From: Mycoplasmatota bacterium
Lineage (GTDB): Bacteria; Bacillota_I; Bacilli_A; Izemoplasmatales; Hujiaoplasmataceae
Direction: 5' to 3'
Assembly: GCA_018622675.1 (NCBI GenBank)
Contig: CP076020.1
Location: 62,001 to 126,000 of the forward strand
Length of the DNA: 64,000 nt
Part shown: positions 50,927 to 57,175 of the stretch, in pieces
How the letters are laid out: each line of letters starts with the position of its first letter
Numbering within the stretch: position 1 is the stretch's first letter
Notes under the pieces: generated by a model
What the model was told of the DNA's origin: nothing
The model's database searches: none
Seen by the model: only the letters and a program-made list of their open reading frames with translations
Program-made: the position numbers and the translations under genes

Positions 50927-51928
50927 ATGAATATTAAAAAAATAATGACCTGGATATCAATTATGTTAGGTATTGTTATATTTGCGACAGTGGGTTATAT
51001 ACTTATATTGGATATATCTTTCATTGATGCGCTATATATGACTATTATTACTATGTCGACAGTGGGTTATAAAGAAATTGTTGATTTAAATACTATTGGA
51101 AAAGTATTTACTATTTTTATTATATTAATTAGCGTTGGTATGGTAGGTTTCTTATTAAAAGTGATCTTTGATTTCTTTAGTCAAGGGGATATTAAATCGG
51201 TATGGAGGAAAAATAAGATGGATAAAATAATTGAAGCATTAGAAAATCATTATATTATATGCGGTGCTGGAGATACTGGCATTAATGTCATTAACCAGTT
51301 TAAAAGAAGAGATATTCCTTTTGTTGTGATTGAAAAAGATGAGGAAGTTATTAAAGAACTCGTAGAATTAGAAGTTCTTTATATCCTTGGTGATGCCAAT
51401 AAGGAAGAAATATTATCAAAAGCTAAGATAGAGAAAGGCAAAGGTTTAATTACTACTTTATCAAGCGATGCTGAAAATGTGTTTATTGTTTTAACAACAA
51501 GAGAAATGAATCGTGATATACATATTATTTCTAGATTTCACGATCGATCTGCTAGAAAAAAACTCTTGCATGCTGGAGCTAACAGAGTTGTTTCACCTGA
51601 TGAAATTGGCGGAAAGAAGATGGCTCAGTTAATGATTTCTCCCCATGTTCAATTTTTTGTTGATAATATTATTGATGCAAAAAATATGTCCATTAATATG
51701 GAAGAAGTTATTGTTAATAAGGGCTCTCAATTGGTGGGTAAATCATTGAGGGAAGCTGATATATCAAACAAAATAGGATTAATTATTTTGGCTATTCGAA
51801 GAGAGGATGAAAAAATAATATTTAATCCTAAAGCCAATGAAATTCTTAGTGTTGATGACAGAATGATAGTGGTTGGTTCAAAGGACCAAATTGAACAAAT
51901 TAGTGGAATTGCTTTAGACAATCAATAA
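50927..51928 (+). CDS. Two-helix potassium channel with RCK (TrkA-N/TrkA-C) domains
   Basis: 333 residues. Two membrane helices (about 10-28 and 60-85) flank the selectivity filter MSTVGYKEI. A cytoplasmic RCK domain follows (HYIICGAGDTGINVI, then VIEKDEEVIKEL and GDANKEE) and a TrkA-C domain ends the protein (VNKGSQLVGKSLREADI). This is the classic MthK-like ligand-gated K+ channel layout. It follows yjbQ by 11 bases with AGGTG as ribosome site. With the antiporter it probably regulates K+ and pH. Confidence 0.93.
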   Translation: MNIKKIMTWISIMLGIVIFATVGYILILDISFIDALYMTIITMSTVGYKEIVDLNTIGKVFTIFIILISVGMVGFLLKVIFDFFSQGDIKSVWRKNKMDKIIEALENHYIICGAGDTGINVINQFKRRDIPFVVIEKDEEVIKELVELEVLYILGDANKEEILSKAKIEKGKGLITTLSSDAENVFIVLTTREMNRDIHIISRFHDRSARKKLLHAGANRVVSPDEIGGKKMAQLMISPHVQFFVDNIIDAKNMSINMEEVIVNKGSQLVGKSLREADISNKIGLIILAIRREDEKIIFNPKANEILSVDDRMIVVGSKDQIEQISGIALDNQ

Positions 51929-51958
51929 AAAAACGGAACGATTTTTCGTTCCGTTTTC
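51928..51958. terminator. Bidirectional terminator between K+ channel and heliorhodopsin genes
   Basis: AACGGAACGA and TCGTTCCGTT pair around TTT, with A and T tracts on each side. Confidence 0.88.
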
Positions 51959-51972
51959 ATTATCTGAAATGT

Positions 51973-52767
51973 TTATTGAGGTTGCATTGTCCCAAAGAAT
52001 ACTAACCAAGCAAGAAGTGTTTTACCTACTAGGCTAAGTATAATATAAACGCGTTCTCCGTATAAATAGTTTTTCCATTTTCCAATACCAAGATATTGTA
52101 ATACCATATTTACTGGGAATGTATTAAATGTTATAAAATATGCAATTACAATTGCCCAAACAAACCCAGGAACTTGGTCGATTGCAGGTGTAGCAACCAT
52201 TTGAGTTAAAATAACAATCCATGGAATAATACCAGCAATTGAGCCGAATATGAATGCTAACCAAGAGACTTCATTTTTTTCTTTTCCGCTATTCATTTTT
52301 TCCATTAATAATCCAAATAAATTCATTGAAGCATTAATGAAGAAGATAAGTAACAATGTTGATATGTCGTATACACCGAAAAGAGTTGAAATTAAGACGA
52401 TCATAATAGATGAACTAATTGCGTATTCATACCATCTAAATTGATTAATGCCTTTTTCTAAATCTTGATTGTAAATAGTATTGGTTTTTTTAGGAAGAGA
52501 AATAATTGCATGTGCAATTGCTGATATAAATAAGAATGAAGCTACTAATACAGCAAATGGTAAATCAAATAACTCTCTACTTCCTTGAACTAAACCACCT
52601 ATTGCAGGATCGTAATCTAAAAATGATACTGTGATTGTTGGGGCATATACTCCAGCTGCTTCGATGACTGTAAATGCTAAAATTAACATAACAATTCCTT
52701 GAATCAGATGAAGGATACCCATTTTAATATTGAAATTTTTTAAACTTTGTAAAGATGTTTTTTCCAT
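51973..52767 (-). CDS. Heliorhodopsin
   Basis: 264 residues with seven membrane helices. The retinal lysine is K249 in the last helix (ILSLVGKTLLAWLVFFGT), matching the SL-x-x-K-x-LLAW signature of heliorhodopsins. The counterion position is E114 in RWYEYAISSSIMI, corresponding to the RWxEY motif of known members. Histidines H20 (MGILHLIQG) and H86 (AIAHAII) match conserved cavity histidines. NMVLQYLGIGKWKNYLYGE is also typical. Heliorhodopsins lie inverted in the membrane (N terminus inside), have long photocycles and do not pump ions by known data. A G-rich ribosome site (GGGGGG) precedes ATG. It is transcribed opposite to its neighbours. No retinal-forming gene is in the window. Confidence 0.95.
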   Translation of the reverse strand: MEKTSLQSLKNFNIKMGILHLIQGIVMLILAFTVIEAAGVYAPTITVSFLDYDPAIGGLVQGSRELFDLPFAVLVASFLFISAIAHAIISLPKKTNTIYNQDLEKGINQFRWYEYAISSSIMIVLISTLFGVYDISTLLLIFFINASMNLFGLLMEKMNSGKEKNEVSWLAFIFGSIAGIIPWIVILTQMVATPAIDQVPGFVWAIVIAYFITFNTFPVNMVLQYLGIGKWKNYLYGERVYIILSLVGKTLLAWLVFFGTMQPQ

Positions 52768-52881
52768 ATTTCCCCCCTTTTGTTTTCTTATTTTAAATAT
52801 ATCATATAATCATTCTTTTTGATATAAACAAGCAATAATTTTTTTTAATTAGAGCAATTCATTTAATACAATTTTTGTTTA

Positions 52882-52890
52882 TGGTATAAT
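52882..52890 (+). promoter_or_regulatory. Extended -10 promoter of the DAK2-DegV gene
   Basis: TGGTATAAT ending at 52890, 37 bases upstream of the ATG. The intervening 160 bases to the heliorhodopsin start hold the divergent control region; no operator is recognised. Confidence 0.6.
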
Positions 52891-52926
52891 AAAGCAACAA
52901 AAAAACAATATTTTTGAGGTGAGATA

Positions 52927-54708
52927 ATGGATTATATTACTGGTAAAGACTTATATCAAATGTTTAATTATGGCACGAATTTTGTAATTCAAAAGAGAAA
53001 ATTACTGAATGATATTAATGTTTTTCCCGTTCCAGACGGAGACACTGGTAACAATCTAGTGCATACAATGCAAACCATTTCAAGAGAGTCAAAAGTAAGT
53101 GATTCTTTTATTGAAACACTTGAATCTATTAGTGATTCTGCTTTAATTGGTGCAAGAGGTAATAGTGGGATTATATTTGCTCAGTTCGTCAATGGTTTAA
53201 GAAAATCATCAGTGAATAAGGACCAGGTTTCTATAGAAGAATTTACACAAATGGCCTTAGATAGTGTCAGCCATGTTTATGGTTCTTTAAGTAATCCTGT
53301 AGAAGGTACTATGCTTTCAGTTATTAAGGATTGGGCAGATGGTCTTAAACACATTTTATCTAAAGTTAAAAATGTACAAGATTACTTTAAACATGCTTTT
53401 GCTAAGGCGGAGTTATCCCTGGAAAAAACTAAAGAACAATTAGCAGTTTTAAAGAAAAATAATGTTGTTGATAGTGGAGCTATGGGCTTTGTTTTGTTTT
53501 TACAAGGTATTAATAGTTACTTTAATAATGAAGAAATTGAACAAATTGATTTTGAGGAATTAGATCTTAATGTCAACCATGATTTTGAAGAAGATATTAC
53601 TTATCGATATTGTACAGAAGGTTTAGTTGAGTATAAACATTTGCTTGAGAAAGTCGATATTAATGAAGATTTAATTAAGGAAACTTTAAGACCATATGGT
53701 GATAGTTTAGTTGTCGTTATGGGTTCTCATATGTTTAGGATACATATTCATACAAATACACCTGAATTGGTTTTTAAAGAATTAAAAGCCTTTGGTTTGA
53801 TTGTATCACAAAAGGTCGATGATATGATACAAGATATTGCCTTTAAGAAAAGTAAAAAAGATACAGTCATAGTCACTGATTCAATCGCGGATATAAATCC
53901 ATCATATTTAAAAGAACATGATGTAGCTACAATACCTTTGAATATTCAAGTAGACAGTGTTACCTATTATGATAAACTAACTATTAATAATGAAATTTTA
54001 TTTGATATGATTGAAGCAGGATTAGAATATCCAACCACTTCAACACCAACAATTAAGTATGTTAATGATTTATTTTCTAAGTTATTATTGCACTATAAAA
54101 ATATCATTGTTATTTTAGTGGCTCAAGAATTAAGTGCCACATTTAGGGCTGTAAATACAGAAGCAGAAAAACTAATAGAAAAAGGGAAAAATATCTATGT
54201 GATTGATTCATATAATAATAGTGTATCCCAAGGTTTACTTGTGAAAAAAGCTGTAGAAATGTTAGAAGCAGGGAAAAAACCTGAAGTTATTGTTGAAAAA
54301 ATAGAAGAAATGAAGAAAAAAACAGAAATACTTGTTTGTCTAGAAACATTTAAATATGCAACTATGTCAGGTAGGCTGCCTAAAGCGGTAGGAAAAATTG
54401 GTATGTTTTTTAAGATAAGACCTATTATGACTTTAGGAGATAAAGGTAAAGGTTCTGCATTTGGGTTCGCTTTATCACAAAAAAGTATTACGAAAAAAAT
54501 TGTGAAGTATGTAAAAAAAGATATGGAAAAAAATGAAATTGATTCATATGCGCTCATACATTGTCTGAATCCAGATTTATTAAAAGAATATGAAGAAATT
54601 TTTACTGATTTAATTGGTAAAAAACCTGAATATATTTCAGAGGTCTCAAGCGCAACTGCTATTCATAGTGGAAAAGGTTCTGTTGCTATAGGATATATTA
54701 GAAAATAA
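52927..54708 (+). CDS. DAK2-DegV fusion: fatty acid kinase (FakA-like) fused to fatty-acid-binding (FakB-like) domain
   Basis: 593 residues. Residues 1 to about 190 are a DhaL/DAK2 nucleotide-binding domain with NVFPVPDGDTGNNL and ARGNSGIIFAQF, as in FakA. A middle region (about 215-310) corresponds to the FakA linker domain. From about residue 315 to the end is a DegV fold: VIVTDSIADINPSYL, YPTTSTPT, AQELSATFRAVN, and FKYATMSGRLPKAVGKIG. In most Firmicutes these are separate proteins, with FakB handing an acyl group to FakA. The fusion would hold both in one chain. It begins the operon that includes the photolyase. A GAGGTGAGA ribosome site precedes ATG. Confidence 0.88.
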   Translation: MDYITGKDLYQMFNYGTNFVIQKRKLLNDINVFPVPDGDTGNNLVHTMQTISRESKVSDSFIETLESISDSALIGARGNSGIIFAQFVNGLRKSSVNKDQVSIEEFTQMALDSVSHVYGSLSNPVEGTMLSVIKDWADGLKHILSKVKNVQDYFKHAFAKAELSLEKTKEQLAVLKKNNVVDSGAMGFVLFLQGINSYFNNEEIEQIDFEELDLNVNHDFEEDITYRYCTEGLVEYKHLLEKVDINEDLIKETLRPYGDSLVVVMGSHMFRIHIHTNTPELVFKELKAFGLIVSQKVDDMIQDIAFKKSKKDTVIVTDSIADINPSYLKEHDVATIPLNIQVDSVTYYDKLTINNEILFDMIEAGLEYPTTSTPTIKYVNDLFSKLLLHYKNIIVILVAQELSATFRAVNTEAEKLIEKGKNIYVIDSYNNSVSQGLLVKKAVEMLEAGKKPEVIVEKIEEMKKKTEILVCLETFKYATMSGRLPKAVGKIGMFFKIRPIMTLGDKGKGSAFGFALSQKSITKKIVKYVKKDMEKNEIDSYALIHCLNPDLLKEYEEIFTDLIGKKPEYISEVSSATAIHSGKGSVAIGYIRK

Positions 54709-54723
54709 ATTGGGGGTATAGAA

Positions 54724-55524
54724 ATGTTTGATTTTGTGTTATCGGATTTGTTTGTTGTACCAGCGATATTAATGATTCTTGCATATTTTTTCATCTTTTT
54801 TGTGGTAGCAACAATAATTAAGAACAATAGTATTGTTGATATCGGTTGGGGCTTAGGTTTTGTAGTAGTTGCTTGGTCACTATTCTTTATTGGTGATATA
54901 GGTGTGAATACTATTGAAAAGTTGATAGTTAATATCATGGTTAGTTTTTGGGGGCTTAGGCTTTTCTACCATATTTTAAAGAGAAATGCTTTCCAAGAAG
55001 AAGACTTTAGATATAAAAAGTGGCGTGAAGAATGGGGAAAATGGGTGGTTCCTAGAGCCTTTCTACAAGTTTTTATGTTACAAGGTTTATTTATGTATAT
55101 CGTTGGAATTGGCGTATTTTATATAAATATGATAGAAAAAGAAGTTAATCTTATCCTATGGTTATTCATCATAGGTATTGTTATTTGGTTAATAGGTTAC
55201 TTATTTGAGGTTATTGGTGATAAACAACTTAAAGACTTTATCGCAAAGAAAAATAAAGACAAAAAACTTATGACAGAAGGTCTATGGAAATACACGAGAC
55301 ATCCAAATTATTTCGGAGAAGCTTTATTGTGGTGGGGAATACTAGTTGCTGTTATTGCCTTTAATGCACCGATCGTTTTCCTTATATCTCCTATAACGAT
55401 TTCTCTATTACTTCGTTTTGTAAGCGGGGTTCCTATGTTGGAAAAACGTATGAGTCAAAGAGAAGGTTGGGATGAATACGCATCAAAGACAAATGCCTTT
55501 ATTCCGTGGTTTCCTAAGCAATGA
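54724..55524 (+). CDS. DUF1295 membrane protein (steroid 5-alpha-reductase-like/ICMT-like fold)
   Basis: 266 residues with about seven hydrophobic helices. NNSIVDIGWGLGFVVVAWSL, then TEGLWKYTRHPNYFGEALLW are the DUF1295 hallmarks; the latter is the NADPH- or SAM-binding region of the steroid reductase/isoprenylcysteine methyltransferase superfamily. The substrate is unknown, probably a lipid. It overlaps the photolyase start by 4 bases (ATGA), so the two are tightly coupled. In alphaproteobacteria, DUF1295 genes are found with photolyase and DUF2177 in photo-oxidative-stress clusters (from memory). Confidence 0.88.
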   Translation: MFDFVLSDLFVVPAILMILAYFFIFFVVATIIKNNSIVDIGWGLGFVVVAWSLFFIGDIGVNTIEKLIVNIMVSFWGLRLFYHILKRNAFQEEDFRYKKWREEWGKWVVPRAFLQVFMLQGLFMYIVGIGVFYINMIEKEVNLILWLFIIGIVIWLIGYLFEVIGDKQLKDFIAKKNKDKKLMTEGLWKYTRHPNYFGEALLWWGILVAVIAFNAPIVFLISPITISLLLRFVSGVPMLEKRMSQREGWDEYASKTNAFIPWFPKQ

Positions 55525-56771
55525 TTCAAATGAGTAATAGAAATATAGTTGTCTTAGATAATCATAATGATAAGGATAAAGTTATTTATTTAATGAATAA
55601 ATCTTTTCGTGTTAATAATAATTATACACTCTATCAAGCGATGAAGTATTGTGAAGAATTTCATAAAGACTTGTGGATAGTTATGGTTGAACCCTATGAA
55701 ATAAATTCAAGGAACTTAGATTATTTTTATCAATATAGTGAAGATCTTTATGAGAAGCTTCATCAGTTCACCGACCAAGTAAAAATTATAAAAAGAGATT
55801 ATGATTATAATAAACTGTTAGAGGATACCCATGCAGTGTTTATTGATAAAAGTTATTTGAAATTTGATTTATCAATATTAAATCAAATTAAAAAAATAGC
55901 CATTAAAAAAGAGGTTTTAATCATTGAAGTTGAATCAAATGTTTTTGTCCCTATAACAGTAGCTTCAGATAAAGAAGAGTACGCTGCTAGAACCATCAGA
56001 AGGAAAATTAATGATAAACTTAGTAGTTATAAGGATGAAGTTTTAAATGAATACCTAAGTTCAAAAGCAGAAAAAGAAGCAATAGATTGTTTAAAAGATT
56101 TCATTGATCATAAATTAAGCAGATATGATGAACATAATGATCCTAGTAAAAATTTAACATCTGGCTTAAGTCCTTTTTTGAAGTATGGGTTCATTTCGCC
56201 TGTGACGATTTATAATATGATGGAAACAATAAATGATAATAACAAAGAAGATTTTTTAGAGGAGTTAATTGTTAGGAGAGAGCTCGCTTATAATTTTGTT
56301 TATTATAATCAATCATATGATGAATTTGAAGGTATGACTGATCAATGGGCTTATCAAACGATGAAAAATCATATGGATGATCAACGTGACTATATATATT
56401 CAATGGATGATTATATTCATTTTAGAACTCATGATCCGTATTTTAATGCTTGCATGATTGAAATGGTTTATTTAGGTAAAATGCATTCATATATGAGAAT
56501 GTATTGGGCTAAGAAAATTATTGAATGGTCAAAGACATACGAAGAAGCTTATAAAATCACTTTAGATTTAAACAACCGATATTTTTATGATGGGTTAACA
56601 CCTAATGGTTATACTGGAGTTGCTTGGTGTTATGGCAAGCACGACCGTGCTTGGTTTGAAAGAGATATCTTTGGTAAATTAAGGTATATGAATGATAATG
56701 GTTTAAAAAGAAAATTTAATATCGATACTTATGTTGAAGATATGAATAATATAAAAGGAGGTAGTGAATAA
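55521..56771 (+). CDS. Class II CPD photolyase
   Basis: 416 residues. A light-driven flavoenzyme that repairs cyclobutane pyrimidine dimers. Class II identity rests on its C-terminal FAD domain: VRRELAYNFVYYN, FRTHDPYFNACMIEMVYLGK, MRMYWAKKIIEWS, NNRYFYDGLTPNGYTGVAWC, KHDRAWFERDIFGKLRYM. The N-terminal alpha/beta domain is diverged. The ATG overlaps the DUF1295 stop; a second in-frame ATG is at 55530. The 3' stop touches the next ATG. Sits in the same operon as DUF1295 and DUF2177 and close to heliorhodopsin. Confidence 0.94.
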   Translation: MIQMSNRNIVVLDNHNDKDKVIYLMNKSFRVNNNYTLYQAMKYCEEFHKDLWIVMVEPYEINSRNLDYFYQYSEDLYEKLHQFTDQVKIIKRDYDYNKLLEDTHAVFIDKSYLKFDLSILNQIKKIAIKKEVLIIEVESNVFVPITVASDKEEYAARTIRRKINDKLSSYKDEVLNEYLSSKAEKEAIDCLKDFIDHKLSRYDEHNDPSKNLTSGLSPFLKYGFISPVTIYNMMETINDNNKEDFLEELIVRRELAYNFVYYNQSYDEFEGMTDQWAYQTMKNHMDDQRDYIYSMDDYIHFRTHDPYFNACMIEMVYLGKMHSYMRMYWAKKIIEWSKTYEEAYKITLDLNNRYFYDGLTPNGYTGVAWCYGKHDRAWFERDIFGKLRYMNDNGLKRKFNIDTYVEDMNNIKGGSE

Positions 56772-57175
56772 TGGATTTTGGTAATTTTATGAAAATGTAT
56801 CTTATTGCTTTAATTGTCTTTTTAGCAATAGATGCGGTATGGTTAGGATTGATAGCCACAAAGTTTTACAAGAATAATATTGGCCACTTAATGGCTGATA
56901 AACCAAACTTTATTGCTGCAGGAGTATTCTATTTGCTATTTATTATTGGTGTTGTGTTCTTTACTTATCATGGTATCGCTGAACAAAACTTTGGCAAAGC
57001 ATTATTAGCAGGAGCTGTATTTGGTTTTATGACTTATGCAACTTACGATTTAACTAATCTTGCAACATTGAAAGAATGGCCAATTAATGTAACGATTGTT
57101 GATTTAATTTGGGGAACATTTTTATCAAGTGCTATGACGACAGCTACATATTTTATTTATCATGCTTTATTTTAA
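56771..57175 (+). CDS. DUF2177 membrane protein
   Basis: 134 residues with four membrane helices. The patterns AIDAVWLGLIATKFYKNNIG, AVFGFMTYATYDLTNLATLK and TIVDLIWGTFLSSAM are diagnostic for DUF2177. Function is unknown. It overlaps the photolyase stop by one base and has AAAGGAGG at the right place within that gene. It closes the DUF1295-photolyase operon; a weak hairpin with TTTTTTT follows (57180-57217). Confidence 0.88.
   Translation: MDFGNFMKMYLIALIVFLAIDAVWLGLIATKFYKNNIGHLMADKPNFIAAGVFYLLFIIGVVFFTYHGIAEQNFGKALLAGAVFGFMTYATYDLTNLATLKEWPINVTIVDLIWGTFLSSAMTTATYFIYHALF

Follow-up and report, generated by a model that had tools for sequence, protein, structure and literature searches.

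The gene at 51973-52767 (minus strand) of the window, by which we mean the whole stretch of 64,000 nucleotides analysed here, encodes a heliorhodopsin of 264 amino acids, and the reading that we favour, with a probability of roughly 0.6, is that of a sensory heliorhodopsin which uses scavenged retinal and whose output is tied to photoprotection. The evidence comes from the protein itself, from its distribution among wall-less relatives of the host, from a recurrent neighbourhood with class II CPD photolyase and from the lack of known retinal genes in the family.

Based on family searches and a structural model, it is close to certain that the open reading frame is a full-length, bona fide heliorhodopsin. 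It matches PF18761 with an E-value of 6.6e-95 (317.5 bits against a Pfam cut-off of 26.7), covering the model end to end (positions 1-242 of 242), and the NCBIfam equivalog NF038020 'HeR' with 302.5 bits against a cut-off of 100, and a chance match to the family is excluded. The Pfam scan of the protein returned no other family, the type-1 rhodopsin family PF01036 included. Its sequence relatives in the PDB are heliorhodopsins only (9vfc, 6is6 and 6su3; identity to solved heliorhodopsins is about 42%), the one extra match of the profile search having an E-value of 0.23, as expected by chance. Residues H20, H86, E114, S118, L125, S245 and K249 correspond to H23, H80, E107, S111, L118, S237 and K241 of 48C12, so that the histidine pair (H20/H86), the ESL motif of helix 3 (E114/S118/L125) and the SxxxK motif of helix 7 (S245-K249), the latter two as defined in PMC9601134, are all present. 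Both motifs are invariant in the homologue alignment; K249, E114, S118 and H86 do not vary across the 123 aligned homologues, and H20 is found in 122, with a gap in the remaining one.

An AlphaFold2 model built with a 34-sequence alignment (pLDDT 89.4, pTM 0.86) predicts seven long helices and two strands, 44-53 and 58-68, that would form the beta-strand A-B loop. Foldseek placed TaHeR first (7clj, E-value 2.6e-18; 6is6, E-value 6.1e-18, TM 0.88), followed by 48C12, the TM-scores to these family members spanning 0.83-0.88, whereas type-1 rhodopsins appeared only at E-values of 6.8e-4 or worse. The cytoplasmic loops carry eight lysines and arginines and the outer loops one, a bias expected of the inverted topology, with the N-terminus predicted inside as in 48C12 and TaHeR. 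The sequence-only reading had called the protein a heliorhodopsin and had given its coordinates, strand and the residues H20, H86, E114 and K249 correctly; the HMM and fold searches bear this out, and a better match to another seven-helix family, which we looked for, was found neither in Pfam nor in Foldseek.

The host was also correctly described as Mollicutes-like. It belongs to a wall-less Izemoplasmatales lineage with no known retinal genes, a setting that distinguishes the protein from the solved heliorhodopsins. Its genome is a single contig of 1,648,168 bases, in which family searches, on which all our genome-wide statements about it rest, found no second rhodopsin (PF01036 included), and G006, a second genome from its GTDB genus, is a single contig of 1,808,583 bases. 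Hujiaoplasma nucleasis zrk29, also of the Izemoplasmatales, is a wall-less isolate from cold-seep sediment (PMC10470597). The impression of a heliorhodopsin as the oddity of one genome does not hold, as matches over the family cut-off occur in 24 of the 34 genomes of the family, 58 of the 90 genomes (59 at an E-value of 0.001) and 26 of the 29 genera of the order, and 70 of 395 sampled genomes of the class. Public records named Izimaplasma, Izemoplasmatales, Mollicutes and Acholeplasmataceae, many of them MAGs, carry heliorhodopsins as well, and the Mollicutes setting is thus common in sequence data. Among the papers available to us, our literature search turned up no link between heliorhodopsins and Mollicutes apart from a single passing mention in one of them, and the word rhodopsin is absent from the texts describing zrk29 (PMC10470597) and zrk13 (PMC8397711). 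A genome as small as about 0.6 Mb (G387) encodes an intact heliorhodopsin (L042/L192). In other members of the class and in one member of the family (G170, G386, G376, G235 and G029) there are broken copies, interrupted by stop codons or with the frame split, which likely reflect recent loss or errors of assembly. Heliorhodopsins are also present in MAGs labelled Fusobacteria and Sumerlaeota (L101 and L095); L101 hardly differs from L110, which is on a Bacillota contig, so that mis-binning is likely.

Within the genus, the heliorhodopsins are 77-90% identical as proteins, with synonymous sites close to saturation, and pN/pS, used in place of dN/dS given this saturation, is 0.08-0.22, similar to the neighbouring metabolic genes. 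Sequence comparison thus indicates strong purifying selection, and the gene is retained for a function. In a tree of heliorhodopsins the genus forms one clade with a support of 99; deep branches are unsupported, and at the level of the order the gene may have descended vertically or may have been transferred. Arrival by phage or plasmid was considered and rejected, with no match among phage records, only two among plasmid records and three among viral contigs; together with the matching G+C content (30.7% for the gene, 30.3% for the window), nothing points to recent transfer. One heliorhodopsin lies on a 10.5 kb plasmid of Lactococcus petauri (NZ_CP141705.1, 4149-4913). The window protein groups with cellular members in the tree, and the cellular TfHeR (PMC9769723) and OcHeR (PMC11109279) do not pump, both of which make it very improbable that it is a light-driven or light-gated ion transporter like some viral heliorhodopsins, for which PMC11109279 cites proton transport in marine giant viruses.

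The heliorhodopsin gene is preceded by a Shine-Dalgarno-like AAGGGGGGAA (52770-52779, minus strand), read from the sequence directly upstream of its ATG, and is followed by a strong intrinsic terminator, a 13-bp hairpin with a T-run (51929-51958; -16.9 kcal/mol, z -4.83), that separates it from the convergent gene for a TrkA-type potassium channel with RCK domains (50927-51928, plus strand); with this terminator the heliorhodopsin forms a single-gene unit. On the other side, a 159-bp intergenic region (52768-52926) holds the putative promoters of the heliorhodopsin and of a divergent FakA-like gene, and a TTATACCATAAAC element on its FakA side is common to all five genomes of the genus. The FakA-like gene (52927-54708, plus strand) encodes a FakA-FakB-like fatty-acid kinase in which DAK2 (FakA-like) and DegV (FakB-like) are joined in one protein. 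It opens a run, divergent from the heliorhodopsin, that continues with a DUF1295 membrane protein (54724-55524), a class II CPD photolyase (55521-56771) and a DUF2177 membrane protein (56771-57175), all on the plus strand. The photolyase has a divergent N-terminal domain and a conserved FAD-binding and catalytic C-terminal domain, and its assignment to class II is by the catalytic domain. These last three genes (54724-57175), at 2-4.4 kb from the heliorhodopsin, had been passed over in the sequence-only reading. The window does not hold a photolyase-heliorhodopsin operon, the photolyase being on the opposite strand and 2.8 kb away, with a terminator after the heliorhodopsin.

All five genomes of the genus share this gene order, save that DUF1295 was not found in G006, and DUF1295, photolyase and DUF2177 are also found near the heliorhodopsin in g2 and g10. 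Class II photolyase is the commonest recurrent neighbour of heliorhodopsins across phyla; it lies within 7.5 kb in 27 of 119 loci, in several lineages including Chloroflexota, where about one would be expected, and a binomial p-value for this is only indicative because the loci are related. Directly divergent pairs occur in g11, Peloplasma, other Acholeplasmataceae and one Erysipelothrix MAG, and co-directional ones in Trichococcus and Anaerolineaceae, while in f13 the order DUF1295-DUF2177-heliorhodopsin-photolyase runs in one direction. In family f2, one or two RumA-type RNA methyltransferase genes often flank the heliorhodopsin (L156-L187). Across the order heliorhodopsin and photolyase also co-occur: photolyase was seen in 46 and not in 12 of the 58 heliorhodopsin-positive genomes, against 8 with and 24 without it among the others. 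The Fisher p-values, which ignore shared ancestry, are 9.7e-7 overall, 7.1e-4 when only genomes of at least 90% completeness are counted, and 2.7e-3 when f3 and genus g18, where for the most part neither gene is present, are left out. In another genome of the order (G079; 1,958,905 bases, one heliorhodopsin) a distance of 710 kb separates heliorhodopsin and photolyase.

The closest experimental precedent is TfHeR of Trichococcus flocculiformis, about 61% identical to the window protein (L082), which raises the activity of class II photolyase (PMC9769723). It would suggest that the window heliorhodopsin directly binds its neighbouring photolyase, of the same class, and extends repair into green light, a proposal that the recurrent linkage across phyla also favours. 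Of the two TfHeR residues concerned, R162, reported to affect binding, is replaced by lysine, which keeps the positive charge, but K227, which is needed for binding (PMC9769723), is glycine in the window protein and in all five sequences of the genus. As one residue is charge-kept and the other lost genus-wide, direct binding as in TfHeR is not assumed; and whereas TfHeR and its photolyase form one operon, here the two are encoded on opposite strands and separated by two other genes, and the N-terminal domain of the photolyase is divergent. Judged on these sequence features, direct binding is unlikely.

We regard it as similarly doubtful that the partner is instead DUF2177, DUF1295, the FakA-like lipid kinase or the TrkA channel, through which light would tune membrane composition or ion flow. 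'Photolyase' and 'DUF2177' are both published heliorhodopsin neighbour groups (PMC11109279), and both are found within 4.4 kb in the window genome, although here they occur at once and in a divergent run that is not co-transcribed with the heliorhodopsin. DUF1295-DUF2177 lies immediately upstream of the heliorhodopsin in f13, and in each of the five genus genomes it is the FakA-like gene that neighbours the heliorhodopsin divergently; however, DUF2177 and DUF1295, which lie near 11 and 10 of 120 loci, respectively, mostly in this order, are rare beside heliorhodopsins beyond this genus and a small number of others.

The sequence-only reading had noted that the window holds no retinal gene, and this puzzle extends to the whole window genome, where family searches found no known retinal gene, and to the family. 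Among its 34 genomes none contains phytoene/squalene synthase (positive in 7 of 14 control genomes) or the RPE65 enzyme (positive in 2 of 14), and none has CrtI over the cut-off, the weaker matches being mostly N-terminal FAD-binding stretches; Blh/Brp over the cut-off is absent from these 34 and from all 90 genomes of the order, by a model without a positive among the 14 controls. Two weak BCD (Blh/Brp) matches in relatives were rejected as retinal genes, being below the cut-off, with the open reading frames there assessed by reading only. In the sister family f2, phytoene/squalene synthase is present in 25 of 49 genomes, many also with CrtI-family desaturases. At its loci L196-L202, L208 and L210 the synthase is divergent from the desaturases and two genes from a DUF92 gene, with no Blh over the cut-off. 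Genomes of f2 (G057, G056, G055, G034 and G062) also encode type-1 rhodopsins (L205 1450-2253, L206 9387-10190, L207, L213, L203 and L204) that have the NDQ motif of sodium pumps (RYLNWLIDVPxLLIQ) and whose PDB matches include KR2. In genus g19, with genomes of about 1 Mb, the type-1 rhodopsin is only a few genes away from an Nqr/Rnf-type run, and up to three heliorhodopsins are present in the same genomes.

The missing retinal route in 34 genomes and the deep-sea members could be taken to mean that the protein needs neither light nor retinal and functions as an apo-protein or by binding a different ligand. This we consider rather improbable, a little more so than either partnership above, as K249 and E114 are retained in every aligned copy and as a bacterium without known retinal genes nevertheless contains retinal and a functional rhodopsin (PMC7734400). 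The wall-less members of the family probably take retinal from their surroundings.

In the sensory reading that we favour, the heliorhodopsin would act as a light sensor and not as a pump. The wall-less cell would obtain retinal, or a precursor of it, from the microbial community around it; light would isomerise the retinal and drive a slow photocycle, in which the cytoplasmic face of the protein may act on a cytosolic partner and change its state. Protection against light and UV damage would be the most likely output, because of the recurrent linkage to class II CPD photolyase and, in this genus, to DUF1295 and DUF2177. For the sensory and photoprotective role taken by itself, to which family, context and selection point, we put the chances at about even. 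Against this explanation we count the opposite strands of the two genes, the glycine at K227, the 12 of 58 genomes without photolyase, the distance in G079, and the inclusion in the genus of an isolate from the deep sea, a habitat in which light is doubtful.

The function of heliorhodopsins in general is still largely open, and here the setting is one of small fermentative genomes with cultured relatives (putatively zrk29 and zrk13, and Peloplasma aerotolerans). Taken together, the absence of known home-made retinal in the family, the recurrent photolyase and the cultured relatives give two questions that can be tested in culture: whether a bacterium without known retinal genes loads its heliorhodopsin, and whether the output of the heliorhodopsin is DNA repair.
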